A stretch of 64,000 nt of DNA from NCBI GenBank assembly GCA_025655455.1, contig JAHXIV010000028.1, positions 1-64,000 of the forward strand, written 5' to 3'. The notes beneath the pieces were generated by a model. The model was not told where the DNA came from, ran no database searches, and saw only the letters and a list, made by a program, of their open reading frames with translations. This DNA is from a gamma proteobacterium symbiont of Taylorina sp. (lineage in GTDB: Bacteria; Pseudomonadota; Gammaproteobacteria; GRL18). Below are positions 7,917-20,715 of this stretch, piece by piece. The position numbers and the translations under genes are program-made. Numbering within the stretch: position 1 is the first letter of the stretch; every line of letters begins with the position of its first letter.

Positions 7917-10265
7917 TTAGGAGTAGAGCAACTTATTGATATCATATATCTTATTTTCTAAGTCCATATGTTTAACATCTGCATACACACCACTTTCTTT
8001 AAAAGGAGACATTGTATTGATGTCACTGGCAGTTATGATTAAATGATTCTGACTTAATATTATAAAATCATCACCCTGATATCGTAAGATCAATGAGTCA
8101 GGATATTTGCCTTTTATTGTTTGAGCCACGTTTATTAATAGTTGATTTCCTTTATCCCAGCTCTCAGAATGATTAAAATCAGTAAAATTCCTTAAAAGAA
8201 TAAAATTGACGCAGTTATAGTCTCTATCAGGGTTGGATAAAATAACCTGAAAATAACTTTCATTATATAATTCTGTTAATGCATCCTGAAAAAAGTAAGA
8301 AAAGCGTTTCTCTTCTAATTCAGAATGAGGTGTCTGAGTGGTTTGTTCGATATTAATATTCTGAAGCACCTCATAGGCCACCCTGGCTACTTCTGGATGG
8401 AACTGTGAACCGGACAATCTTAAAATTTCATCTAAAGCTTCGTTAATTTCTTTTCTTGGTTTGTAAATTCTATTGGTTGTCATCGCATCAAAGGCATCTG
8501 CCAGGATCATAATGTGAGAGATTATTGGAATTTCATCAGGTGATTTTGTTCTTGGATACCCCTTTCCATCATATCTTGAATGATGATACTTGATTATTTC
8601 AGCCAGATCTTTATACATTTCAACTTTTGAGAGCATATTATAACCTGCTTTTGAGTGCTGCTTAATCAATTCATATTCCAGTAAATTGAGTTTTCCAGGT
8701 TTGAGCAAGACAGCATCAGGAGTCGCAACTTTTCCTATATCATGTAAAATAGCGGCTTTTTCCAGACGATTAACATCTTCTGCAGCAATATTCATGGCAA
8801 TAGCAATTTTTTTACAGTACTGAGCGACTCTGATTGTGTGACCTGCAGTGTATGTGTCTCGTTGTTCGATAATATCAACAAAGGCCAGGATGGTTTCTTC
8901 ATAATTTGAAACTTTTTCATGTTCCATTTTTTTAAGCTTATTTTCCTGCTGACTGGCATGTAATATCAGACCAATATCAGTTGCCAGACTTTCCAGCACT
9001 TTAATTTCTTCCAGTTCAAAACCATCTTTTCTGTCAGTATAAACATTCATTGCACCTAATAGATCATTTTCATCATGAGTATTCAGTGGAATAGCAATCG
9101 TCCAGTAAATCTGAAAATCACTTTGTCTGCGACTTTCACCAGCTGTTTCTGAAATTTCATTAAATTGTTCAATGATGGTGCGATTTGTTTTAATTGCTTT
9201 TAATGCAGTTAAGTTTTTTGATTTCTCATCACCATCAAGATTATAGACAACATCATTAATAATTCTTTTTTCATCATTTGATTTATAGGCAACTTCAAGC
9301 AAATGATTATTAACCAGACCAATCCAGATAAAACGATAATTATGATGTTGGGCAAGTCGATCCACACTATCCTTCAGGATGTTATTTAATGAAAAAGAAG
9401 TGAGTAATAAAGCATTGACATCAGAAACCGTTCTTAATACCTCTTTCATATATTTTTCCTGCTGCACCATCACTTTTAATGAAAGCGTTCTTTCTTCTAC
9501 TTTTTTCTCAAGAGAGGCATTGAGTGTTTCAATTTCCTGTTGATGTCTATAGAACAATTCAATGAACCAGACAAAGAGTATGATGGCCAATGATGCAACA
9601 ATAATGATAATGACAGAAAAGTGAGTTGACTGTGATTCAAGCACGGCCATCTCCTGCTGGAAAATATCATTTGGAATGCTGACTCTAATTCCACCCCGAA
9701 CATCCCCTTCTTTATAACCCTGAATTTCATGACAGGTCAGACATGATTTTTTTACCAGCAACCTCCCCATAAAATTAAAATTTAAGCCCTTATTTGTAAA
9801 TTGATAATAATAAGGTTTATCTTTATGACTCTCAAAATAAGTGAGTGCTTCACGTTCAAAAAGATCTGCTATATTATCGGGATTCAATGGATTCAGACTG
9901 GTGATACGGTAAAAATATTTACGTTTTTTATTTGATATTTCTGATATCTGACGGGTCATCCAGGCAGGATTGATTTTTATTAATTGTGTTCCATCCATAG
10001 CAAGTAGTGTATTATTTTTTAAGTGTGGATTAGGCTTGAGTCCTTTTTTAGGTCTGACATAAACCCCACCAAACATTGCGTTCCATGCTCTGGTATCAAC
10101 CATATTATCAAAGTGTGCAATGGCTTCCTGAAGTAATTTCTGTTGGATTAGTGCTGTTTGCTTTTCTTTGACCTGGTGATTATTGAGCAGCATGATTATT
10201 GCTATCAGTAAAATAATAATAAGAACAATTATTTTTACCCGATTTTTGTTTATTTGTATATTCAT
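7917..10265 (-). CDS. Heme-binding Tll0287/DUF3365 sensor fused to GAF, HD-GYP and degenerate GGDEF
   Basis: The protein is 782 residues. After an N-terminal membrane anchor, the extracytoplasmic region resembles DUF3365 (Tll0287-like) and contains one c-type heme motif, C175-L-T-C178-H179, followed by GDVRGGIRVSIP. A second membrane segment and coiled coil lead to a GAF domain (about 275-425) and an HD-GYP phosphodiesterase domain with HDIGK and YDGKGYP. The last ~150 residues look like a GGDEF fold in which the signature has become YQGDDF, so it is probably catalytically inactive. It likely lowers c-di-GMP in response to a heme-sensed redox or gas signal. The start codon is three bases after the stop of the decayed cyclase, so the two were once co-transcribed. 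Confidence 0.85.
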   Translation of the reverse strand: MNIQINKNRVKIIVLIIILLIAIIMLLNNHQVKEKQTALIQQKLLQEAIAHFDNMVDTRAWNAMFGGVYVRPKKGLKPNPHLKNNTLLAMDGTQLIKINPAWMTRQISEISNKKRKYFYRITSLNPLNPDNIADLFEREALTYFESHKDKPYYYQFTNKGLNFNFMGRLLVKKSCLTCHEIQGYKEGDVRGGIRVSIPNDIFQQEMAVLESQSTHFSVIIIIVASLAIILFVWFIELFYRHQQEIETLNASLEKKVEERTLSLKVMVQQEKYMKEVLRTVSDVNALLLTSFSLNNILKDSVDRLAQHHNYRFIWIGLVNNHLLEVAYKSNDEKRIINDVVYNLDGDEKSKNLTALKAIKTNRTIIEQFNEISETAGESRRQSDFQIYWTIAIPLNTHDENDLLGAMNVYTDRKDGFELEEIKVLESLATDIGLILHASQQENKLKKMEHEKVSNYEETILAFVDIIEQRDTYTAGHTIRVAQYCKKIAIAMNIAAEDVNRLEKAAILHDIGKVATPDAVLLKPGKLNLLEYELIKQHSKAGYNMLSKVEMYKDLAEIIKYHHSRYDGKGYPRTKSPDEIPIISHIMILADAFDAMTTNRIYKPRKEINEALDEILRLSGSQFHPEVARVAYEVLQNINIEQTTQTPHSELEEKRFSYFFQDALTELYNESYFQVILSNPDRDYNCVNFILLRNFTDFNHSESWDKGNQLLINVAQTIKGKYPDSLILRYQGDDFIILSQNHLIITASDINTMSPFKESGVYADVKHMDLENKIYDINKLLYS

Positions 10266-10268
10266 AGT

Positions 10269-10602
10269 TTACACTTTGTTAAAAAAATAATATCCATTGC
10301 GTCCGGATTTTTTTGCCTGGTCGGCATTACTCATTAATGTTTCTATTCCAATATTATCTTCCGTAAATATAACTGAAGCGATACTGGCTGAAATATAAGT
10401 TTTATTTCCTAATAAGATAAATGCTCTATTCATGTTAGTTAAGATATTACTGATAACCATTGTCATATTGTCTTTTGATTTAATATTAGAAAGTATCACT
10501 GTAAATTCATCACCAGCCTGATGGCCTAAAGTATCATTCACTTCTTTAAATTTGTCGATTCGGGAGATTGGTCAAGTGATCATAATGGGCTTTATGTAAA
10601 AA
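10269..10602 (-). pseudogene. Decayed diguanylate cyclase (GGDEF domain with internal deletions)
   Basis: On the minus strand from 10602 the reading gives HKAHYDHLTNLPNR, the classic start of a GGDEF domain. The frame then changes and resumes as DKFKEVNDTLGHQAGDEFTVIL. The segment between the LPNR box and the metal-binding DKFKEVND box is missing. So is the segment between NDTLGHQAGD and the GGDEF signature; here the two GD-containing motifs are fused into QAGDEF. The remaining C-terminal half (SASIASVIF, NADQAKKSGRNGYYFF) is normal. An ATG at 10541 could still give a 90-residue product, but it would lack the active site. The gap from 10603 to 10895 holds no other recognisable gene. Confidence 0.75.
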
Positions 10603-10895: not shown

Positions 10896-13415
10896 ATGTC
10901 AGTAAAATCGTATTCTGAGATAAGTATCCAGTCTATTATGCATTCTCAGGTTTTAACTTGTTCAATTGATGATTCAATACAATCTGTCGCTGCAAAAATG
11001 CAGGCACAAAATGCCAGCTCTGTAATTGTCGTTAAGGATAATATTCCTGTTGGTATCTGGACGGAAGCTGATGCCTTAAAATTGGACTTCAATATTGAGG
11101 CATTATTTTTTCAGCCGATTAGAAATTTTATGTCAACACCTGTACAGACGATGAAGCAGCAGGTATTGGTTTCAACGGCTGCTTTGGCATTTCAGGAACA
11201 GGGAATCAGGCACTTTGTCGTTGTTGATGATGAAGGGGCGATGCAGGGTATTATCAGTCAAAGTGATATTATCTTTCATCAGAGTCCGGAAAGTTTCTTC
11301 CACGTACAAAAAATTAATAAGGTTCTGAATCCGGATTTTTTATCATTGGATCTATCTCTTTCTATTGCCTCGGCTATTAGTCAGATTTATAAATCTTCAG
11401 CATGTTCTGTGATTGTGACAGGTTTTGCTGATAATGAATATGGTATTATCACAGAGCGTGATATTGTCCAGGTTATTGCTAATGGGAATATATCTGATCG
11501 GTTGGAAAAAGTTGCCAATAAGCCGTTATTAACTATTCATAGTGAACAATCCCTGATTGAAGCTCAGCAAATGCTGGTAGAAAATAATATCAGGCATTTA
11601 GGTGTCATAAATAAGAACAAAGTTATTATTGGTATCCTGACATTTGAACATATATTAAAAGGGATTCAATATGAGTATGTTCATTATCTGGAGGATATTT
11701 TAAAGCAAAGAGATGATGCATTAGTGATTGCCAATAAAAACTTACTACTGGCACATAGTGTTTTAGAATCTACCCAGGAAGGGATTATGGTGGTTGATAC
11801 GCATGGAAAAATTGAAATGGTTAATCCTGCATTCTCAACTGTAACAGGTTACACAGAAGAAGAGGTGATTGGAAAAAATCCGAATATATTACGTTCAGAA
11901 AGGCATAATAATGAATTTTACAAGCAAATGTGGGAGCAGATTAATAAAGTAGGATACTGGCAGGGTGAGATTTGGAATAAACGTAAGACAGGTGAAATTT
12001 ATCCAGAGTGGCTTAGTATTAATACTATATTTGATGAAGATCGAGTGATTCAGGGCTATGCATCTATCTTTACTGATATTACCGAGCGGAAAAAAGTGGA
12101 AGAGCGGATAAAAAATCTGGCTTATTATGATTTTTTAACTAAATTGCCTAATCGTCGATTATTACTTGATCGTCTGGACATTGCCACCGCGAATGCCAAG
12201 AGACATAATCATATACTGGGTTTAATGTTTTTAGATCTGGATTTTTTCAAACGTATTAATGATACGCTGGGACATGCGGGTGGTGATGAGTTATTAAAGC
12301 AGGTGGCAGAAAGATTATCTTCTTTTATCCGTGAGGGGGATACATTAGCACGTATTGGTGGTGATGAATTTGTTGTGGTATTAGCAGAATTGGGTAAAAT
12401 CTCTGAGCTCACGCAATTTGCCAAACGAACTCTTGAACAAATGAAGAAGCCGTTTTACGTCATGTCCCAGGAATTATTTATCAGCTGCAGTATTGGTATC
12501 AGTTTATTTCCTGAAGATGGTGAAGATCCAGATACTTTATTGAAACATGCTGATACTGCTATGTATCGTATAAAAGATTTGGGCAGAAACGGCTTTGAAC
12601 TTTATGCAAAGTCAATGGATTCAAAGTCCATAGAGCGTTTATCTATGGAAACCAGTTTGCATAAGGCATTGGAGAAAAATGAATTTTTCCTGACTTATCA
12701 GGTTAAGGTTGATCTCTCTACAGGTAATATTGCCGGAATAGAAGCTTTAATTCGCTGGGATCATCCTGATCTGGGTATATTACAGCCAGACAGTTTTATT
12801 GAACTGGCCGAACAAACCGGTTTAATTTTACCCATTGGTCAGTGGGTTTTAGAAGAAGCTTGTCGTCAAAATAAACAATGGCAAAAAATGGGTTTGCCGT
12901 ATTATCGTGTGGCTGTCAATGTCTCGGTTCATCAATTTTGTCGAGAAGAAATTTTCTTATGGATTGAAAATGCATTGGAACTCTCAGGTTTGGATGCAAA
13001 ATATCTGGAACTTGAGATTACTGAATCATCTATTATGAAAAAGCTGGAACGGGCAAAAGTGACAATTAAGCAATTAAAAGAGACTGGCGTGTCCATTTCT
13101 ATTGATGACTTTGGTACCGGTTTTTCAAGCCTGGCTTATCTGAAAGAATTTACTATAGATTTTCTAAAAATTGATCGAAGTTTTTTAACCCACTTATTAG
13201 AAGAAAAGAAAGATCAGGCCATTGTTTCTGCAATCATCAGTATGGCAAAACACCTGGATATTAAGGTAATTGCTGAGGGTGTTGAATTAGAAGAACAGGT
13301 TGAATTTTTGAAAATGTCAGGCTGTGATGAAATTCAGGGTTTTTTGATTTCACGTCCAATGACTGCAGATAATGTAGTCACCTTGTTTGAGCAAAAATTA
13401 TTACCATCTTTATAA
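10896..13415 (+). CDS. CBS(x4)-PAS-GGDEF-EAL signalling protein
   Basis: Cytoplasmic 839-residue protein. Two Bateman modules (four CBS motifs, about residues 8-125 and 130-255) are followed by a PAS domain (about 285-400), a GGDEF domain with an intact R-I-G-G-D-E-F signature (488-492) and an EAL domain with an intact E616-A-L motif and DDFGTGFSSL loop. Both c-di-GMP synthesis and hydrolysis therefore look possible, with CBS domains sensing adenine nucleotides and PAS sensing another ligand. No membrane segments are seen. It is transcribed alone, convergent with the GMC oxidoreductase gene 11 bases away. Confidence 0.9.
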   Translation: MSVKSYSEISIQSIMHSQVLTCSIDDSIQSVAAKMQAQNASSVIVVKDNIPVGIWTEADALKLDFNIEALFFQPIRNFMSTPVQTMKQQVLVSTAALAFQEQGIRHFVVVDDEGAMQGIISQSDIIFHQSPESFFHVQKINKVLNPDFLSLDLSLSIASAISQIYKSSACSVIVTGFADNEYGIITERDIVQVIANGNISDRLEKVANKPLLTIHSEQSLIEAQQMLVENNIRHLGVINKNKVIIGILTFEHILKGIQYEYVHYLEDILKQRDDALVIANKNLLLAHSVLESTQEGIMVVDTHGKIEMVNPAFSTVTGYTEEEVIGKNPNILRSERHNNEFYKQMWEQINKVGYWQGEIWNKRKTGEIYPEWLSINTIFDEDRVIQGYASIFTDITERKKVEERIKNLAYYDFLTKLPNRRLLLDRLDIATANAKRHNHILGLMFLDLDFFKRINDTLGHAGGDELLKQVAERLSSFIREGDTLARIGGDEFVVVLAELGKISELTQFAKRTLEQMKKPFYVMSQELFISCSIGISLFPEDGEDPDTLLKHADTAMYRIKDLGRNGFELYAKSMDSKSIERLSMETSLHKALEKNEFFLTYQVKVDLSTGNIAGIEALIRWDHPDLGILQPDSFIELAEQTGLILPIGQWVLEEACRQNKQWQKMGLPYYRVAVNVSVHQFCREEIFLWIENALELSGLDAKYLELEITESSIMKKLERAKVTIKQLKETGVSISIDDFGTGFSSLAYLKEFTIDFLKIDRSFLTHLLEEKKDQAIVSAIISMAKHLDIKVIAEGVELEEQVEFLKMSGCDEIQGFLISRPMTADNVVTLFEQKLLPSL

Positions 13416-13426
13416 GTGCTCACAGC

Positions 13427-15112
13427 CTATAATTCAGCCAGGATTTTATCTGCGACTCTAAAGGCGTTTGCATAAATCGTCCAGGTATAGGGCACACTAC
13501 CTCCTGTAGGCATAAAGCTGCCGTCAGTTACATAGAGATTTTCAATATCATGAATACGACAATTTTTATCTAATACGGATGTTTTGGGATCATTGCCAAA
13601 GCGGCATCCACCAGCCACTAAATTAGTTGGCGGTGCACCTGCGGCAAAAGAAACCACATTTTCTGCCCCCATTGCATGCAATACATCGGCACTTTTATTG
13701 GCCAGATACCAGCCGGTTTGTAAATTTCTAAGATGTACATCAACTCTGACCTTAGCAGAGGGCAGACCCCATTTATCTTTAACATTTGCATCCAGAGAAA
13801 CAAAGGTATTGTCGGTGGGTGTCCAGTCACAAAAAGCTTCTACTTTTATATACCGGCCTCCGGTAAAATGTTCATGAATTTTATCTTTTAAAGGCTTGCC
13901 CCATAATAGACCCTGATTACCATTTATCTGTCGACTGGCACGAGAAACAGGATTTGGATGTAAATGAACAAAATCAATTGTGCCGCCCTTTTGCCGTGCA
14001 CCAAATTCTTTATCATCAATCACGTACCAATCCTGTATAGAGCGATTAATGAAGGTGCCGAATTGATGGAGTTCTCTGGTTTCCTGTGCGTCAAATGACT
14101 GATAGGTGAGACGACCTGAACCTGCCCCTCCTCCTGCAAATAATAGATTTTTACCTAATTGTCCCTGGTTATTGCCCAGACCGTTTTTGTGTTTAGGGCC
14201 GCTTGAGTTTAATAATAATCGGGATGTTTCAATTGCCTGACAGGCCACGACATAAATTTTTGCATCGACGCGCTGTTTTTCGCCCTGCTTGTTATAATAT
14301 TCAACCGCAGTAATTTTACCTCTGCTATCTGAAGTAATTTTACTGACCATTGATTCAGTGCGTATTTCACAGTGCCCAGTCTGCATGGCCTGATCAATTA
14401 AAGCTGCACGGGAACTTCCTTTGGCACCGGTAGAACAGCCATAGGAACCACAATACCCGGAATAACTACAGGCTGTACGTCCTTTATCAGAACGAGGAAT
14501 AATTGCTCTGGGCATAGGAATAGCGTGATAGCCTAATTTTTCACATGCCTTGTCAATGTGTTTGGCTATGGGGTGTTCTGCGGTTGGCGGATAGGGAAAA
14601 TCTTTACTGCTGCGGGGTTCCTGATGAGGATGATCGACCACTCGACCTGAAACACCGACCACCTTTTCAACCTTATCATAATAGGGTTCAAGATCATCAT
14701 AGCTAATCGGCCAGTCAACAATATTTGCACCATCAATTGATCCAAATTCAGAAAGCTGATGAAAATCAACCGGTTTTAGACGATGAAAAAATCCACTCAT
14801 AAAGTTACTGGAACCACCCACCAGACTGCCATTCCAAAAATCCCAGCCGGAATTATAAGTTGGTTTACTTTTCCAGCCGTTTTCACCACGGGGTAATTCA
14901 ACGACATGCTGCTGTTCACGTAAATCAGGCGTATAAATATTTCTTAATGAAGTGGTTAATTCGTCTTTTTTAAAATCTTTCTCTTTATAATATTTTCCTT
15001 TCTCCAGCACAACGACTTTATAACCAGCTTTTGATAACTCATAAATAATGGGGCCTGCACCTGCACCACTGCCTATCACACAAACATCATAATCATGGCT
15101 ATTATCTAACAT
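13427..15112 (-). CDS. GMC-family FAD oxidoreductase with altered catalytic motif
   Basis: 561 residues. The N terminus has the FAD dinucleotide-binding motif VCVIGSGAGAGPIIYELSKAGYKVVVLEKG and the central GGSSNFMSGFFHR box of GMC oxidoreductases. The C-terminal domain ends in NLYVTDGSFMPTGGSVPYTW. In typical GMC enzymes this region has a catalytic His in HxxGTCRMG and an Asn or His in the final motif. Here the first reads NLVAGGCRFGNDP and the second SVPYTW, so neither expected residue is present by eye alignment. Downstream of the Tat-exported subunit gene it resembles the large subunit of membrane-linked alcohol/sugar dehydrogenases; its substrate is unknown. Confidence 0.8.
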   Translation of the reverse strand: MLDNSHDYDVCVIGSGAGAGPIIYELSKAGYKVVVLEKGKYYKEKDFKKDELTTSLRNIYTPDLREQQHVVELPRGENGWKSKPTYNSGWDFWNGSLVGGSSNFMSGFFHRLKPVDFHQLSEFGSIDGANIVDWPISYDDLEPYYDKVEKVVGVSGRVVDHPHQEPRSSKDFPYPPTAEHPIAKHIDKACEKLGYHAIPMPRAIIPRSDKGRTACSYSGYCGSYGCSTGAKGSSRAALIDQAMQTGHCEIRTESMVSKITSDSRGKITAVEYYNKQGEKQRVDAKIYVVACQAIETSRLLLNSSGPKHKNGLGNNQGQLGKNLLFAGGGAGSGRLTYQSFDAQETRELHQFGTFINRSIQDWYVIDDKEFGARQKGGTIDFVHLHPNPVSRASRQINGNQGLLWGKPLKDKIHEHFTGGRYIKVEAFCDWTPTDNTFVSLDANVKDKWGLPSAKVRVDVHLRNLQTGWYLANKSADVLHAMGAENVVSFAAGAPPTNLVAGGCRFGNDPKTSVLDKNCRIHDIENLYVTDGSFMPTGGSVPYTWTIYANAFRVADKILAEL

Positions 15113-15188
15113 GGAATTTTCCTCTGTCTTATATGCAATTTTATTTTAGCAGAACAACAGAGGCAAATTGCATGTTTTGGCTGATGGC

Positions 15189-15776
15189 TCATAGTAAAAA
15201 ATATCTTGTCTCTATTGTGGGTCTGGGAAGGCCTGCCTGATGTTCTAGCCATTGCCAGCCGATTTCATTGGTGTTGCCGCCATAAACCGGATCAACTAAT
15301 AGTGCTTCAAATATATAACCAAGCACTGTCATAATCCAGGGCGTTCCATTGGGTGTTTTTTCAAATTTTCTTAAAGTGGCTTCACGCTGGGTTTGATCAA
15401 GTTCAAGAAATAATTTCTTGTGTTGCTTCCAGCAAATATCCTGTAATTCAATGAGTCCGTCTTTGACTAATTGTCGATCTTCATCATCACGACTTGCATC
15501 AGATAAAACGGCATATAAATAAGCCTGTGAATTGACTTCTTTAGCGCCCGGAGCAGTAGACTCTGAAGGAAACAAATGATTCTGCACGGCAATTATTGTT
15601 TTCCACTGACGCCGGCTCAAACCGGGATCAATCGTTTTTGTTGACTGAAAAAGGGTTGTATTGATTGGTGTGTCAGTAACACCTTCAACAGCAAACAAAA
15701 AGGGTGAGTGAGTGACCAGCATGGTGGTGCCCGAGGCAGTAAGAAAAGAACGTCTATTCATTTTAGTTTTATTCAT
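15189..15776 (-). CDS. Gluconate 2-dehydrogenase subunit 3-like protein, Tat-exported
   Basis: The 195-residue protein begins with a twin-arginine signal, MNRRSFLTASG, and contains the TIIAVQNHLFPS region typical of gluconate 2-dehydrogenase subunit 3 (small subunit) proteins. It ends with a helical stretch near GGNTNEIGWQWLEHQAG. Such subunits are needed for export or assembly of the partner GMC flavoprotein, which is the next gene, 76 bases downstream, and which itself has no signal peptide. No cytochrome c subunit follows, which differs from the usual three-subunit dehydrogenases. The ATG at 15776 may be preceded by two codons; the RR motif fits either start. Confidence 0.8.
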   Translation of the reverse strand: MNKTKMNRRSFLTASGTTMLVTHSPFLFAVEGVTDTPINTTLFQSTKTIDPGLSRRQWKTIIAVQNHLFPSESTAPGAKEVNSQAYLYAVLSDASRDDEDRQLVKDGLIELQDICWKQHKKLFLELDQTQREATLRKFEKTPNGTPWIMTVLGYIFEALLVDPVYGGNTNEIGWQWLEHQAGLPRPTIETRYFLL

Positions 15777-15826
15777 GTTAAGAATCTGGGGAAATTACCA
15801 TGGGCTATTTAAGAACTTATACTTGT

Positions 15827-16240
15827 TTATTGTTGATATTCAGCAATTGTACCCTGTAACATCCATAGCATCCACTGTGGTTTAATATAACCTGTTTTAG
15901 CAATTAATTGTTGCCCATTAGAATCTAAAATAATAGTTCCGGGGCGACCGACTTTTTTAAAACGACTGGCCAGCTCGGGATATTTTTCTTCATCTGCTTT
16001 AATCGCAATATAGTTTTTATTGAGTTCATCAATGACGGATTGATCTTTGTAGGTTGTTTGTTCCATTTTTTTACAAAACTTGCACCATTGTGCAGTCAAA
16101 TCAATTAGGATAAAACGATTATTCTGTTTTGCCTGGGTCGGGATGTCTTCTGACCAGACCTGCCAGTCAGGCTCATTGGCCTGACTGGATAAAAAATAAA
16201 AAATGCTCAAACAAGTCAGCATGATAACAATATTTTTCAT
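15827..16240 (-). CDS. Periplasmic thioredoxin-fold protein (DsbD-C-terminal-like)
   Basis: The start chosen is the ATG at 16240, giving about 137 residues that begin with a hydrophobic signal peptide (MKNIVIMLTCLSIFYFLSSQANE). A longer frame upstream overlaps the DoxX gene and has no good start. The mature part has the thioredoxin active site WCKFCKKME and a cis-proline loop (GRPGTIILD), as in the C-terminal domain of DsbD and related thioredoxin-7 proteins. It should handle thiols in the periplasm. Its position between doxX and the oxidoreductase genes suggests it keeps the four-cysteine DUF2282 peptide, or the flavoprotein, in the right redox state; that link is inference. Confidence 0.8.
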   Translation of the reverse strand: MKNIVIMLTCLSIFYFLSSQANEPDWQVWSEDIPTQAKQNNRFILIDLTAQWCKFCKKMEQTTYKDQSVIDELNKNYIAIKADEEKYPELASRFKKVGRPGTIILDSNGQQLIAKTGYIKPQWMLWMLQGTIAEYQQ

Positions 16241-16241
16241 A

Positions 16242-16703
16242 CTATTTACTTTGCTGATTAAAAAATTTATGACATAGCCAGTAATCAAGCGATAATTTAC
16301 CCGGGCCATGAAAGAAAGTAACGGCTAACATAAAACCCCACATATAATGATCATTGATTCCGGCAGGACTGATATCGCCATAAGAAATCATTGCGATATA
16401 ATTAAAAACAAATAAGGCTAATGCTGTTGGTCTGCTGATCAAGCCGACTAATAATAATATTGGTAAGGTCAGCTCTGCGGCCGTACCCAGATAGGCAGCA
16501 GCCTCCGGTGGTATGAGCGGGACATTGTATTCATATTGAAATAACATCATCGTGGTGTCCCAACTTTGTATTTTTGTTAGACCTGATTGGAAAAATACTT
16601 TTGCCACCCAGATACGTAATATAATATCCAGTATAGGAGAAGCAATGTTCAGCATTTTTGTCGCTGAACAATAAAGGTGACTGGTTTTACTGATTAAAGA
16701 CAT
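16242..16703 (-). CDS. DoxX-family membrane protein (BufD-like)
   Basis: Start taken at 16703, preceded by GGAA, giving 153 residues; an upstream frame to 16793 would run into the preceding gene. Four hydrophobic segments with DoxX features are visible: LRIWVAKVFFQSGLTKIQ, the PPEAAAYLGTAAELTLPILLLVG segment, and a last helix following HYMWGFMLAVTFFHGPGKLSLDYWL. DoxX proteins are quinone-reactive or accessory membrane proteins in several redox and metal systems, and a DoxX gene (bufD) is a usual partner of DUF2282 genes. The stop is one base before the thioredoxin-like start. Confidence 0.85.
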   Translation of the reverse strand: MSLISKTSHLYCSATKMLNIASPILDIILRIWVAKVFFQSGLTKIQSWDTTMMLFQYEYNVPLIPPEAAAYLGTAAELTLPILLLVGLISRPTALALFVFNYIAMISYGDISPAGINDHYMWGFMLAVTFFHGPGKLSLDYWLCHKFFNQQSK

Positions 16704-16773
16704 AACACATTCCAAATATTGAAAGGGTGAGGGATGGATACCTGAAGGGCAAACAGGTATCCATAACAGCTGA

Positions 16774-17031
16774 TTACTTCTTGGCAGCATCAACTAATTT
16801 TGCGCAAGTACCTTCTGGCACATAAATCCACTCTTCTGGATCCTTATCTACCTTAGCCATACCTGCACAAGCATGCTTGCTTGTTCCACAGTCGTTCATA
16901 CCTGCTTTAACAATACCGGTACACTTTTCGAATCCGGGCTTTCCAGCAAAAGCATTGGCAGAAAGTAAAGCCATGCTTAAAGCCATAAGACCTGAGAGCA
17001 AAGCATTTGTCATTGTTTTTGAATATTTCAT
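16774..17031 (-). CDS. DUF2282 four-cysteine peptide, bufferin (BufA1)-like precursor
   Basis: An 85-residue secreted protein with a clear Sec signal peptide ([13 protein letters not shown] cleavage region), then four conserved cysteines in the DUF2282 pattern: [28 protein letters not shown] and PEGTC. In characterised bufferins the same cysteines are modified to thiooxazoles by an MNIO (DUF692) enzyme and the product binds copper. No DUF692 or DUF2063 gene is present here; the next gene is DoxX. The peptide may therefore be unmodified or matured by an enzyme encoded elsewhere. It is the first gene of the operon, divergent from the two-component system. Confidence 0.85.
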
Positions 17032-17069
17032 ATATAAATAATCTCCAATAAAATTGTTCTTATGGGATT

Positions 17070-17088
17070 AGAGCCATCAGCCAATAAA
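17070..17088 (-). repeat. Partial copy of the ~90-bp dispersed repeat
   Basis: The sequence agagccatcagccaataaa in the leader between the DUF2282 gene and the response regulator gene is identical to the conserved outer arm (seen on the reverse strand) of the tandem repeat at 48362-48539. The rest of the element is degraded here. Another short copy of the arm lies at about 15175-15191 in the gap between the GMC gene and its partner subunit gene. Confidence 0.6.
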
Positions 17089-17251
17089 ATTGTAGAGCTA
17101 ATTTCAAGCAGACTCCGCACCCTGTTTGTAAAAAGAAAATCGTTTCTCTTATGAGCAGAAAGTATAGACTATGGTGTATTAATTTAATATGAACTGAACA
17201 TTAAATATAATTTAGTTTTTGGTAAAGGTAACTTATGCTACTATTGGCAGC

Positions 17252-17944
17252 ATGAAAATATTACTGATAGAAGATGATAAAAGCGTAGCTGAATTTATTA
17301 TAAAAGGCCTGATTGAAAAAAGTCATGTTGTTGACCATCGCCTGGACGGAAAAGAAGGCCTGTTCATGGCGACGACTGAAAGCTATGATGTTATGATTAT
17401 TGATCGTATGTTACCAGGTATTGATGGATTAACAATAATCAGGACATTGCGTGCCTCAAAAATCACGGCTTCTATTTTAATTCTTAGTGCGATGGCTGAT
17501 GTTGAACAGCGAGTAGAAGGTTTGCAAAGCGGTGCCGATGACTATCTGGTCAAACCATTTTCTTTTTCAGAACTGCATGCACGGGTTGAGATTTTAGGTC
17601 GTAGAAACAGCTCCAATGACTCACAGGTGACGGAGTTAATCGTTGCTGATTTAAAAGTAGATTTAATCAGCCATAAAGTAACTCGTTCCAGTCAAAATAT
17701 TGAGTTGCTGGCCACAGAATATCGACTCCTGGAATATCTGATGCGTCATGCGGGTCAGGTTGTATCACGTACCATGCTATTAGAGCATGTATGGGATTAT
17801 CATTTTGATCCGCAAACTAATGTGATTGATGTCCATATGAGTCGTTTAAGAAAAAAAATTGATAAACAATTTAATATTCCTTTAATACAAACAATACGTG
17901 GTTCCGGCTATGTCCTTAAAGTACCTGAGCCATCAGCTCAATAA
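17252..17944 (+). CDS. OmpR-family response regulator
   Basis: The ATG at 17252 gives 230 residues and places the receiver domain in register; a TTG 33 bases upstream is less likely. The receiver (1-115) has acidic pocket E7-D8-D9, phospho-acceptor D51 (MIIDRMLPGIDG) and the conserved KPF. The C-terminal winged helix (about 130-225) includes LLATEYRLLEYLMRHAGQVVSR, VIDVHMSRLRKKID and IRGSGYVL. It is of the CusR/CopR-like branch by appearance. It is divergent from the DUF2282 operon and followed by its kinase, so it likely controls that operon. Confidence 0.9.
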   Translation: MKILLIEDDKSVAEFIIKGLIEKSHVVDHRLDGKEGLFMATTESYDVMIIDRMLPGIDGLTIIRTLRASKITASILILSAMADVEQRVEGLQSGADDYLVKPFSFSELHARVEILGRRNSSNDSQVTELIVADLKVDLISHKVTRSSQNIELLATEYRLLEYLMRHAGQVVSRTMLLEHVWDYHFDPQTNVIDVHMSRLRKKIDKQFNIPLIQTIRGSGYVLKVPEPSAQ

Positions 17945-18046
17945 GAGCCTTCAGCAAATAAAATTTAGCCGCTGTCGCTTTGCAAACCTTTTTTTTACAA
18001 AAGAAGAAATTGCAAATAAGACGGGGGTAAAGTTTTATGTTTGATA
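17943..18046 (-). repeat. Full copy of a ~90-bp palindromic dispersed repeat
   Basis: The segment from agagccttcagcaaataaa through ccgctgtcgctttgcaaa and attgcaaataag to attttatgtttgataa-like sequence matches, on the opposite strand and along its whole length, the tandem units at 48362-48539. The copy fills the gap between the regulator and kinase genes. Its last bases, ttttatgtttgataat, supply the start codon and first codons of the kinase gene. Confidence 0.7.
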
Positions 18047-19407
18047 ATAGTCAAATCGTTAATAATTCATCTATTCGATTAATTTTTTCATATTCAGCAT
18101 TATATATTACATCATCGGTGATTCTGCTTATCTTTGTTTTCTGGTTTTCGGTTGTTTATATGAAACAACAGGTCGATCATCATATTGAATTTGATGCTAA
18201 AACCCTGATTTCAATTTATACACAATTTGGTCGGGAAAAAATGATTGAATCTATTCATGAACGTATTATGAATGAAGACTATGATTCCATCTATCTGCTC
18301 TATGATAACGACAAAAATATTTTATCCGGTAATTTAGCAAAAATTCCACCAAACCTCAGTAGCGGATGGCAGGAAATAAGTTTGAATGATTATCGATTTG
18401 TTAAAACTTTACATTCTGATCGTGCCCGTGTGATGAATAAAATGTTAGATGAGGATTTGTTTTTTCTTAATGGTTTAGATGTCAATGCTTTGGATTCACA
18501 AAAGAAGTTGTTGATTATGATTATGTCTATCGGTCTGGTTATTATACTGGTTACCGGATTACTGGGTGGTTTTATTATGAGTCGTAGTACCATCCGAAAA
18601 ATCAATATTATGAATTCCACTATACTCAAAATACAAAATGGTGATTTACAACTGCGTATTCCTCATAGCAATACGAATACAGACTATGATTTACTGGCCA
18701 CTAATATCAATAATATGCTTGATCAGATTAGGATATTAATTGCTGATATACAAAATATTTCTAATCATATTTCACATGATTTACGCACACCTCTGACCCG
18801 CATGCGTGGGAAGCTTGAGCATGTACTATTACATACCTCTTATGAGCAGACCAATAATATTCTGGATGCAATTGATGAAGCGGATACTTTACTATCTGCA
18901 TTTAATGCTATTTTGCGTATCAGTAAAGTAGAAAGTGGAGCGGCTAAAACTAATTTTACAGATTTATCCTTGAACAGGTTGATTGAGGATGTTGTTAATT
19001 TTTATGAACCATTGGCGACTGAAAAAAATTTAAGTATTCATACAGAACTATCTTCATCCATAGTAATCAAGGGAGATAGAGATATGCTGTTTCAAGCCCT
19101 GGCCAATATAATGGATAATTCAATTAAGTATTCAGATAAAGCTGGAAAAATTAATATATTACTGGCTGAAAAAAATAAGCAGATAATATTACAAATTGCA
19201 GACAATGGTAAGGGAATTCCTGAGTCAGAGCATGAGAATGTCTTTAAACGTTTTTTTCAGCTGACAAAACATCGCGGCAGTCAGGGGCATGGGCTGGGAT
19301 TAAGTTTGGTAGCCGCCATAGCAAAACTGCATAAGGCGCAGATTCAATTAAAAGATAATGATCCCGGATTAATTGTTGAAGTTTTATTTAGTTCAAAGCT
19401 TAAATAA
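18037..19407 (+). CDS. Membrane sensor histidine kinase
   Basis: 456 residues. Two membrane segments (about 17-40 and 158-180) enclose a periplasmic sensor of about 115 residues without a recognised family. HAMP follows (STIRKINIMNSTILKIQNGDL). The HisKA domain has phospho-accepting H247 in NHISHDLRTPLTR, and the ATPase domain shows the N box NIMDNSIKYS, DNGKGIP and GHGLGLSLVAAI. It is the evident partner of the preceding OmpR-type regulator. The ATG lies inside the end of a dispersed repeat; a GGGGG run (18022-18026) nine to ten bases upstream may serve as ribosome binding site. Confidence 0.9.
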   Translation: MFDNSQIVNNSSIRLIFSYSALYITSSVILLIFVFWFSVVYMKQQVDHHIEFDAKTLISIYTQFGREKMIESIHERIMNEDYDSIYLLYDNDKNILSGNLAKIPPNLSSGWQEISLNDYRFVKTLHSDRARVMNKMLDEDLFFLNGLDVNALDSQKKLLIMIMSIGLVIILVTGLLGGFIMSRSTIRKINIMNSTILKIQNGDLQLRIPHSNTNTDYDLLATNINNMLDQIRILIADIQNISNHISHDLRTPLTRMRGKLEHVLLHTSYEQTNNILDAIDEADTLLSAFNAILRISKVESGAAKTNFTDLSLNRLIEDVVNFYEPLATEKNLSIHTELSSSIVIKGDRDMLFQALANIMDNSIKYSDKAGKINILLAEKNKQIILQIADNGKGIPESEHENVFKRFFQLTKHRGSQGHGLGLSLVAAIAKLHKAQIQLKDNDPGLIVEVLFSSKLK

Positions 19408-19506: not shown

Positions 19507-20715
19507 TTAAGGTGCAACAACCTTTTTAGTGACAGCCTTTTTCCTGGGTGCAACTCTCTTTCTGGTGACTACTTTCTTCTTTGGAGCGACAGTTTTCTTT
19601 GTGGCAACTTTCTTCTTTGGAGCGGCAGTTTTTTTAGTGATGACTCTCTTTTTGGGAGCGACAGTTTTTTTAGTGACGACTTTCTTTTTGGGAGTGACAG
19701 TCTTTTTAGTGATGACTCTCTTTTTGGGAGCGACAGTTTTTTTAGTGACGACTCTCTTTTTGGGAACAACAGTTTTTTTAGCTGGTTCTGCTGGCTTTTC
19801 AGTAGTTGCAACAGCAGCCTTCTTTAAGGTGAGCTTAGTTTTAGAGGTATCCACTTTTTGCTTGTTTTTATTAGCAGATTTTTTCTCTTGTTTTAGTTTC
19901 CCGGATTTTCTTTTCTTTTTCTTATCCGACTTCTTCTGCTTCGCTAGTTTTTCTTTAGCGGCAATTTTTTCCATTTGTGCAATTTTCTTCTTGGAGAACT
20001 TTTTCTTATCTTTTTTCTTGTTTTTCATATTTTTCTTCCCTATAATTTTATTACTTTCTTTTTGCTTGACAAGAGGATCTAATACTTTTGTTATTCGATA
20101 AAAGATGTCTTCTACCTCACCTGTTCCCTCAATAATTACATTTTTTGTTTGTTGTTTATAATATGAGATTAGTGGTTCAGTTTGTGACGTGTATATTTTC
20201 AAACGGTGAGTAATTGTTTCTTTATTATCATCGGCTCTTTGAATTAATTTCCCACCACAATTATCACAGACTTCTTTCAGGCGGGGTGCTGAAGTGTAAA
20301 TATTAAATAGTTGATTGCAATCTGCACAGATCCTTCGTCCTGTCAAACGACGCATTAAATCATCAAAGTTAATGTCAATAAGAATGGTTTTTTCTAATGG
20401 TTTATAAATGATGTTCAGCATATTATCCAATGCTTCAGCCTGGGGAATATTTCTTGGAAAACCATCCAGGATAAAACCGTGTAATGCATCTGGTTCTTTC
20501 AAGCGCTCTTCAATAATACCTAATACTATATCATCAGTAACCAGTTCACCCGCTTCCATTGCCTGTTTGGCTTTAATACCCAGCTTTGTTTCTTCCTGAA
20601 CAGCTTCACGTAAAAGGTCACCTGTTGATATTTGCGGTATACCATATTTTTTTACTAATAATTTTGCTTGTGTACCTTTACCAGAACCGGGGGCGCCTAA
20701 TAAAACAATTCTCAT
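19507..20715 (-). CDS. adk: Adenylate kinase with lysine-rich, histone H1-like C-terminal tail
   Basis: Residues 1-215 are a normal long-form adenylate kinase: P-loop GAPGSGKGTQ, AMP-binding STGDLLRE, DGFPRN, the LTGRR lid start, and a zinc-type lid with CADC and CDNC. The remaining ~185 residues are unusual. First comes a stretch almost entirely of K, S, A, E and Q, then about seven 12-residue repeats of the form KKTVAPKKRVIT. Such tails resemble histone H1/AlgP-like DNA-binding proteins and would be extremely basic. The frame is continuous with no internal stop, so a fusion is encoded as read. Converts ATP + AMP to 2 ADP; the tail might tether it to nucleic acid. Confidence 0.9.
   Translation of the reverse strand: MRIVLLGAPGSGKGTQAKLLVKKYGIPQISTGDLLREAVQEETKLGIKAKQAMEAGELVTDDIVLGIIEERLKEPDALHGFILDGFPRNIPQAEALDNMLNIIYKPLEKTILIDINFDDLMRRLTGRRICADCNQLFNIYTSAPRLKEVCDNCGGKLIQRADDNKETITHRLKIYTSQTEPLISYYKQQTKNVIIEGTGEVEDIFYRITKVLDPLVKQKESNKIIGKKNMKNKKKDKKKFSKKKIAQMEKIAAKEKLAKQKKSDKKKKRKSGKLKQEKKSANKNKQKVDTSKTKLTLKKAAVATTEKPAEPAKKTVVPKKRVVTKKTVAPKKRVITKKTVTPKKKVVTKKTVAPKKRVITKKTAAPKKKVATKKTVAPKKKVVTRKRVAPRKKAVTKKVVAP

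Follow-up and report, generated by a model that had tools for sequence, protein, structure and literature searches.

How does a bacterium handle the cysteines of a bufferin-type peptide when it lacks the enzymes known to modify them? The question is raised by a five-gene cluster on the minus strand of a 64,000-nt stretch of contig JAHXIV010000028.1 (assembly GCA_025655455.1, from a gammaproteobacterial symbiont of Taylorina sp.), hereafter the window. The cluster (13427-17031) encodes a DUF2282 (Buf1-type) peptide (BUF), a DoxX protein, a thioredoxin-like protein (TRX), a Gluconate_2-dh3-type small subunit (GDH3) and a GMC flavoprotein; all five genes and the four cysteines of the peptide are present on that strand with the ends given in a first-pass annotation of the same DNA. 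In canonical Buf1 peptides a disulfide joins the outer two cysteines, while the two central ones carry the modification (PMC12452194); MNIO products show absorbance near 302 nm (PMC12668002). The first-pass annotation had remarked that DUF692 (MNIO) and DUF2063 partners are missing here, and the whole genome bears this out: a profile search of all 4.51 Mb (completeness 100, contamination 0.19) returned no match to DUF692/MNIO (PF05114) or DUF2063 (PF09836), with control genomes positive. The genome holds a second DUF2282 gene (G000:C10, locus L083, 9606-9932) that stands alone, with neither DoxX nor MNIO neighbours, and since both enzyme families are absent neither copy can be modified by the known route. 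At L083 DUF2282 adjoins a uracil-DNA glycosylase-like gene; since similar neighbours surround a BUF-DoxX locus in related genomes, loss of DoxX is a possibility here. In a survey of complete genomes, 21 of 4072 genomes with DUF2282 had no MNIO (PMC12452194), and published surveys have suggested that MNIO-less Buf1 peptides either need no modification or have lost their function.

Our results reveal a strong association between MNIO-less DUF2282 and one clade of GMC enzymes. A scan of GTDB genomes gathered 80 related DUF2282 loci (53-77% identity to the peptide of the window), which were scored for an MNIO within 2 kb and for the presence of the GMC in the genome; six lay too near contig ends and were set aside. 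The GMC was present in the genomes of 37 of the 38 MNIO-less loci versus 3 of the 36 canonical bufABC loci (p=2.5e-16), and the three canonical exceptions carry a GMC of another clade (57-59% identity). Within a 50-genome set, 12 of the 13 genomes without any MNIO have the GMC, the exception being a 1.7-Mb metagenome-assembled genome (MAG); many of the genomes are MAGs, and absence from fragmented ones is weak evidence. The order to which the window belongs is represented by 24 genomes, with peptide and GMC both present in 18, both missing in four and one found alone in two (p 0.002). The bacteria with MNIO-less DUF2282 and this GMC are mostly sulfur-oxidising Gammaproteobacteria, and relatives of Thiomargarita, Beggiatoa and Sedimenticola are among them.

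A tree of the GMC sequences has two fully supported sides, clades A and B, which are told apart by eight positions. In clade A, 38 sequences belong to genomes with MNIO-less DUF2282 and one to a genome without DUF2282; clade B holds 29, of which 21 come from genomes without DUF2282 and eight from canonical bufABC genomes. Thioredoxin genes lie near the GMC gene in 32/38 clade A loci versus 7/30 clade B loci. Since it was the peptide that led to many members of clade A, unbiased numbers matter, and these come from 369 genomes drawn evenly across the class, 97 of them with DUF2282, 222 with MNIO and 36 with a GMC homologue (E<1e-100). From locus coordinates and 60 fetched loci, with canonical labels partly read by hand, the 97 DUF2282 genomes were labelled as canonical (71), MNIO-less only (11), unresolved (12) or carrying DUF2282 and DUF2063 without an adjacent MNIO (2), a weak fragment in G325 being left uncounted. 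The GMC (at least 62% identity) occurs in 5 of the 11 genomes without a canonical locus versus none of the 71 with one (p=1.7e-5), and MNIO-less DUF2282 occurs in 5 of the 6 clade A genomes of this sample versus none of 30 with clade B (p 1.6e-5). In this sample a sound DUF2282 in a genome devoid of MNIO is seen only in the genome of the window (G000) and in G087, and both cluster DUF2282 with GDH3, GMC and DoxX. Beyond the class, a scan of 399 genomes of the phylum turned up no clade A sequence except that of the window itself. The linkage of DUF2282 with GMC in the absence of MNIO, first noticed at this one locus, is conserved and exclusive.

These observations suggest a second way to handle DUF2282 cysteines. 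The reading we favour, tentatively and with slightly less than even confidence, is that of an MNIO-independent Buf1 system served by a periplasmic thiol-redox module. The peptide would be exported through Sec with four plain cysteines and would act as a periplasmic metal buffer, probably for copper, the thiol-redox module substituting for the cytosolic MNIO-DUF2063 pair. The CxxC thioredoxin would exchange electrons with the cysteines of the peptide, the GMC enzyme (with FAD and a 3Fe-4S cluster), for which the Gluconate_2-dh3 partner would serve as Tat carrier, would take electrons from the thioredoxin or give them to it, and DoxX may be the membrane or quinone-side partner. Regarding the module as a thiol-redox system draws on three features: both cysteines of the CxxC motif are kept in 36/36 relatives of the thioredoxin-like protein; Cys215/221/226 of the GMC are found in 68/68 relatives, aligned with the 3Fe-4S cysteines of fructose and FAD-glucose dehydrogenases; and a DsbA-like gene directly follows the GMC gene in the Sedimenticola-type loci L059, L064-L067, L072 and L073, its product having the N-terminal domain of the copper-resistance protein ScsC (domain checked in L059). 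The proposal that the peptide is handled differently, or put to a different use, had been made from a single locus; it has withstood both the genome-wide search for the missing partners and the examination of linkage across genomes, and now stands on firmer ground, save for the role in the substitution given to DoxX. DoxX had been presented as standing in place of MNIO; however, it is a common gene of bufferin clusters (PMC12452194) and also follows DUF2063 in canonical loci, and we rejected it as part of the substitution. A literature search for GMC, DoxX and thioredoxin together found nothing.

The GMC enzyme itself groups with the fructose dehydrogenase of Gluconobacter and the FAD-glucose dehydrogenase of Burkholderia cepacia, both by sequence (phmmer E ~1e-37) and by structure (Foldseek E ~1e-37, TM ~0.7, from a model with pLDDT 80.6 that is weaker at residues 209-228 and 535-540). 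Leu498 (Leu in 65/65 relatives) aligns with the catalytic His mutated in PDB 8k6j (H1147A), and Pro541 (Pro in 62/65) with the second catalytic Asn, which is the residue changed in 8xcn (N1190A). With both residues lost, ordinary alcohol oxidation by this GMC is unlikely. The enzyme has no signal of its own, and the small subunit, whose twin-arginine motif RRx[FLV] is kept in 88/91 relatives, is probably its Tat carrier; by analogy with the FAD-glucose dehydrogenase family, the pair would be co-exported in the folded state. Searching the PDB with the small subunit gave noise only. No gene for a multihaem cytochrome c subunit is present at 13400-17260, and some relatives have a monohaem cytochrome c gene two genes upstream of the GMC operon; neither a cytochrome nor a quinone partner could be assigned to the GMC. 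Cys503 ('GGCRFG') was considered as a newly gained thiol at the flavin site and dropped, as a cysteine there, in the GTCxMG motif, is common in other GMC enzymes. Cys518 has a counterpart in the B. cepacia glucose dehydrogenase.

The loss of these residues also bears on a more radical possibility, in which GDH3-GMC is a true alternative maturase that makes a covalent change (a heterocycle or another oxidative product) on the central cysteines after export, supported by thioredoxin and DoxX. Its distribution is mutually exclusive with that of MNIO-DUF2063, as expected of a functional replacement, and the alcohol-oxidising residues are gone. Almost all MNIO-less (orphan) copies of the peptide retain the four cysteines. 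The residue before the third is suggestive as well, being Ala in 40/47 orphan versus 7/41 canonical copies, the latter having mostly Ser or Gly; this change adjoins a residue that is a modification target in canonical Buf1 (PMC12452194). The shift to Ala could, however, come from lineage effects. Clade B occurs without any DUF2282 and must have another substrate there, the presence of a thioredoxin favours thiol exchange over ring formation, and no precedent is known to us of covalent cysteine modification by a GMC enzyme. On balance we consider an alternative maturase unlikely. The fuller version of the idea, a repurposed flavo-iron-sulfur GMC, exported through Tat with its small subunit and working with thioredoxin as a non-homologous replacement of MNIO-DUF2063 that modifies the cysteines of DUF2282 metallophores in the periplasm, outside the cytosolic route of ribosomally synthesized and post-translationally modified peptides, seems to us a shade less likely again.

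Six gene layouts connect the peptide with the module. The co-directional order BUF-DoxX-TRX-GDH3-GMC is found in the window, L001 and L002, and in L020 with GMC on another contig; a divergent arrangement in L051, L057 and L069; a convergent one with the DsbA-like gene in the Sedimenticola-type loci; TRX-GDH3-GMC-BUF in L077; and BUF-GDH3-GMC-DoxX in L120/G087. In L011 a pair of genes for an extracytoplasmic function (ECF) sigma factor and a DUF3379 protein heads TRX-x-GDH3-GMC, opposite BUF.

Several findings weigh against a thiol-redox module dedicated to the peptide. Of the 11 class genomes whose DUF2282 loci are all MNIO-less, six do not have the GMC either, hence the module is not the sole solution; many genomes, among them many of the window's order, keep the TRX-GDH3-GMC operon separate from the peptide gene; the G087 cluster has no thioredoxin; the DoxX tree shows only 3 to 7 switches of the MNIO-less state (7 changes, 3 of them forced by supported branches); and the loss of catalytic residues is not specific to a DUF2282 role, as clade B shares the same replacements, which places the loss before the link with DUF2282. 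The separate operons, the existence of clade B without DUF2282 and the clustering of the association on the tree would all fit an unmodified peptide acting alone; TRX-GDH3-GMC would then be a separate envelope-stress enzyme, of use in the same conditions and merely co-inherited or co-regulated. This we judge rather unlikely, because the association involves one GMC clade only, excludes canonical loci, takes six linked layouts and extends to joint presence and absence within the window's order. The small number of changes on the DoxX tree would also suit a few lineages that lost bufBC and share the GMC by chance through common ancestry. Sampled independent pairs on that tree nevertheless agree in direction or tie and never oppose, though they are too few for significance in a sign test; gene layouts differ, and G087, in another family, has a layout of its own. 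We regard common ancestry as a very improbable explanation.

Alternatively, an MNIO encoded at another locus might modify the peptide in trans, as has been proposed for spare precursors (PMC12452194), and the GMC family does occur in 27 of the 37 MNIO-bearing genomes of the 50-genome set. Yet none of the 20 MNIO loci that we read in genomes with both MNIO-less Buf1 and MNIO lies beside Buf1. Most follow a 6-Cys (Buf2-type) precursor and L187 follows a GKCG-repeat precursor; the MNIOs of L180 and L186 are of a distant type and have no recognised precursor, and no precursor was picked out in L183. The existing MNIOs tend to have their own precursors or to be of a distant type, and MNIO is missing from 12 further genomes of the set that carry the GMC, though several of these are fragmentary MAGs. 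For the window, whose complete genome matches neither family, modification in trans was rejected unless an unrecognised MNIO is present, and overall we hold it to be highly improbable. Two further loci, L214 (G119) and L235 (G094), have DUF2282 followed by a DUF2063-type gene with no MNIO beside it, and in L235 a sigma factor comes next; here the partner protein stays by the precursor while the MNIO is elsewhere.

The cluster was compared with the three closest known systems. With Buf1 clusters (bufA1-bufB-bufC-doxX, the GIG operon of Legionella and Cupriavidus, and Caulobacter Buf1) it shares DoxX, a DUF2282 peptide with Sec signal and four cysteines, and metal-type regulation, through an ECF sigma factor in relatives and a heavy-metal-like two-component pair in the window; it differs in the linked thioredoxin-GDH3-GMC operon that is found where MNIO and DUF2063 are absent. 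With the fructose and FAD-glucose dehydrogenases it shares a GMC large subunit with a Tat small subunit, the fold, the FAD-binding motif and the three 3Fe-4S cysteines, whereas the window GMC has Leu and Pro for His and Asn, no cytochrome c subunit in its cluster and a CxxC thioredoxin beside it. The Scs/Dsb periplasmic copper-thiol systems also have an exported CxxC protein, and an ScsC-type DsbA lies by the GMC in Sedimenticola-type loci; no ScsB/DsbD-type gene was seen in the cluster, where a DUF2282 peptide and a flavoprotein are encoded instead. In the lucinid symbiont Ca. Thiodiazotropha endolucinida, the 100 genes with the highest transcription include one for DUF2282 (PMC13137333, Table 1). 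An unrelated second case of DUF2282 by a GMC gene is seen in L215/L248 (G263), where DUF2282-DoxX is followed by genes for a short-chain dehydrogenase/reductase, a cyclase-like protein and a distant, different GMC.

The features of the cluster and its surroundings are collected in Table 1. From DUF2282 to GMC the intergenic gaps are 71, 1, 50 and 76 nt. The hairpin between the peptide gene and DoxX recurs at the same place in L001, the nearest relative of the window locus, with one compensating change of a paired C:G to T:A. L001 also has the same response regulator and histidine kinase pair in divergent position, and the divergent response regulator is the probable regulator of the cluster.

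Table 1. Features of the DUF2282-GMC cluster and the adjoining two-component genes (window coordinates)
Feature	Coordinates	Strand	Characteristics
OmpR-type response regulator, divergent	17219..17944	+	nearest to heavy-metal CzcR/SilR/CopR; TIGR01387 246 bits, below cut-off 279
Sensor histidine kinase, partner of the response regulator	18037..19407	+	nearest to heavy-metal sensor kinases; TIGR01386 154 bits, below cut-off 293
DUF2282 (Buf1-type) precursor, 85 aa	16774..17031	-	PF10048 79 bits, E 2.6e-22, cut-off 22.4; Sec signal to ~residue 30; Cys37/48/55/76
Perfect 11-bp hairpin without U-run	16734..16764	-	just 3' of the DUF2282 stop, before DoxX; z -1.8
DoxX/HvfX-type membrane protein, 153 aa from ATG	16242..16703	-	PF07681 60 bits; NCBIfam HvfX 56 bits, under cut-off 80
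Exported thioredoxin-like protein	15827..16240	-	signal peptide; CxxC 53/56 (WCKFC); Thioredox_DsbH 66 bits
Gluconate_2-dh3-type small subunit	15189..15776	-	PF13618 60 bits; twin-arginine start MNRRSFL
GMC flavoprotein, own signal absent	13427..15112	-	Cys215/221/226, 3Fe-4S-type; Leu498 for catalytic His; Pro541 for Asn

Two other features of the window were recorded. An adenylate kinase gene (19507-20715, minus strand) encodes a long C-terminal Lys/Ala/Pro repeat tail ('KKTVAPKKKVVT') derived from a 36-bp tandem array, and an adenylate kinase with the same repeat tail is encoded in L001 (1299-2456). At 7917-10541 (minus strand) an HD-GYP-like/GGDEF-like signalling gene is seemingly split, a short GGDEF-like open reading frame (10269-10541) lying directly upstream of one of 782 aa.

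A large group of bacteria thus keeps an intact Buf1 peptide without a dedicated MNIO, and one enzyme clade is found in place of its usual partners. On the tentative reading of a periplasmic thiol-redox module, the group would offer a testable case of the same metal-binding peptide being handled without thiooxazoles, and the peptide may in turn provide a clue to the substrate of a GMC family that has lost its catalytic residues.

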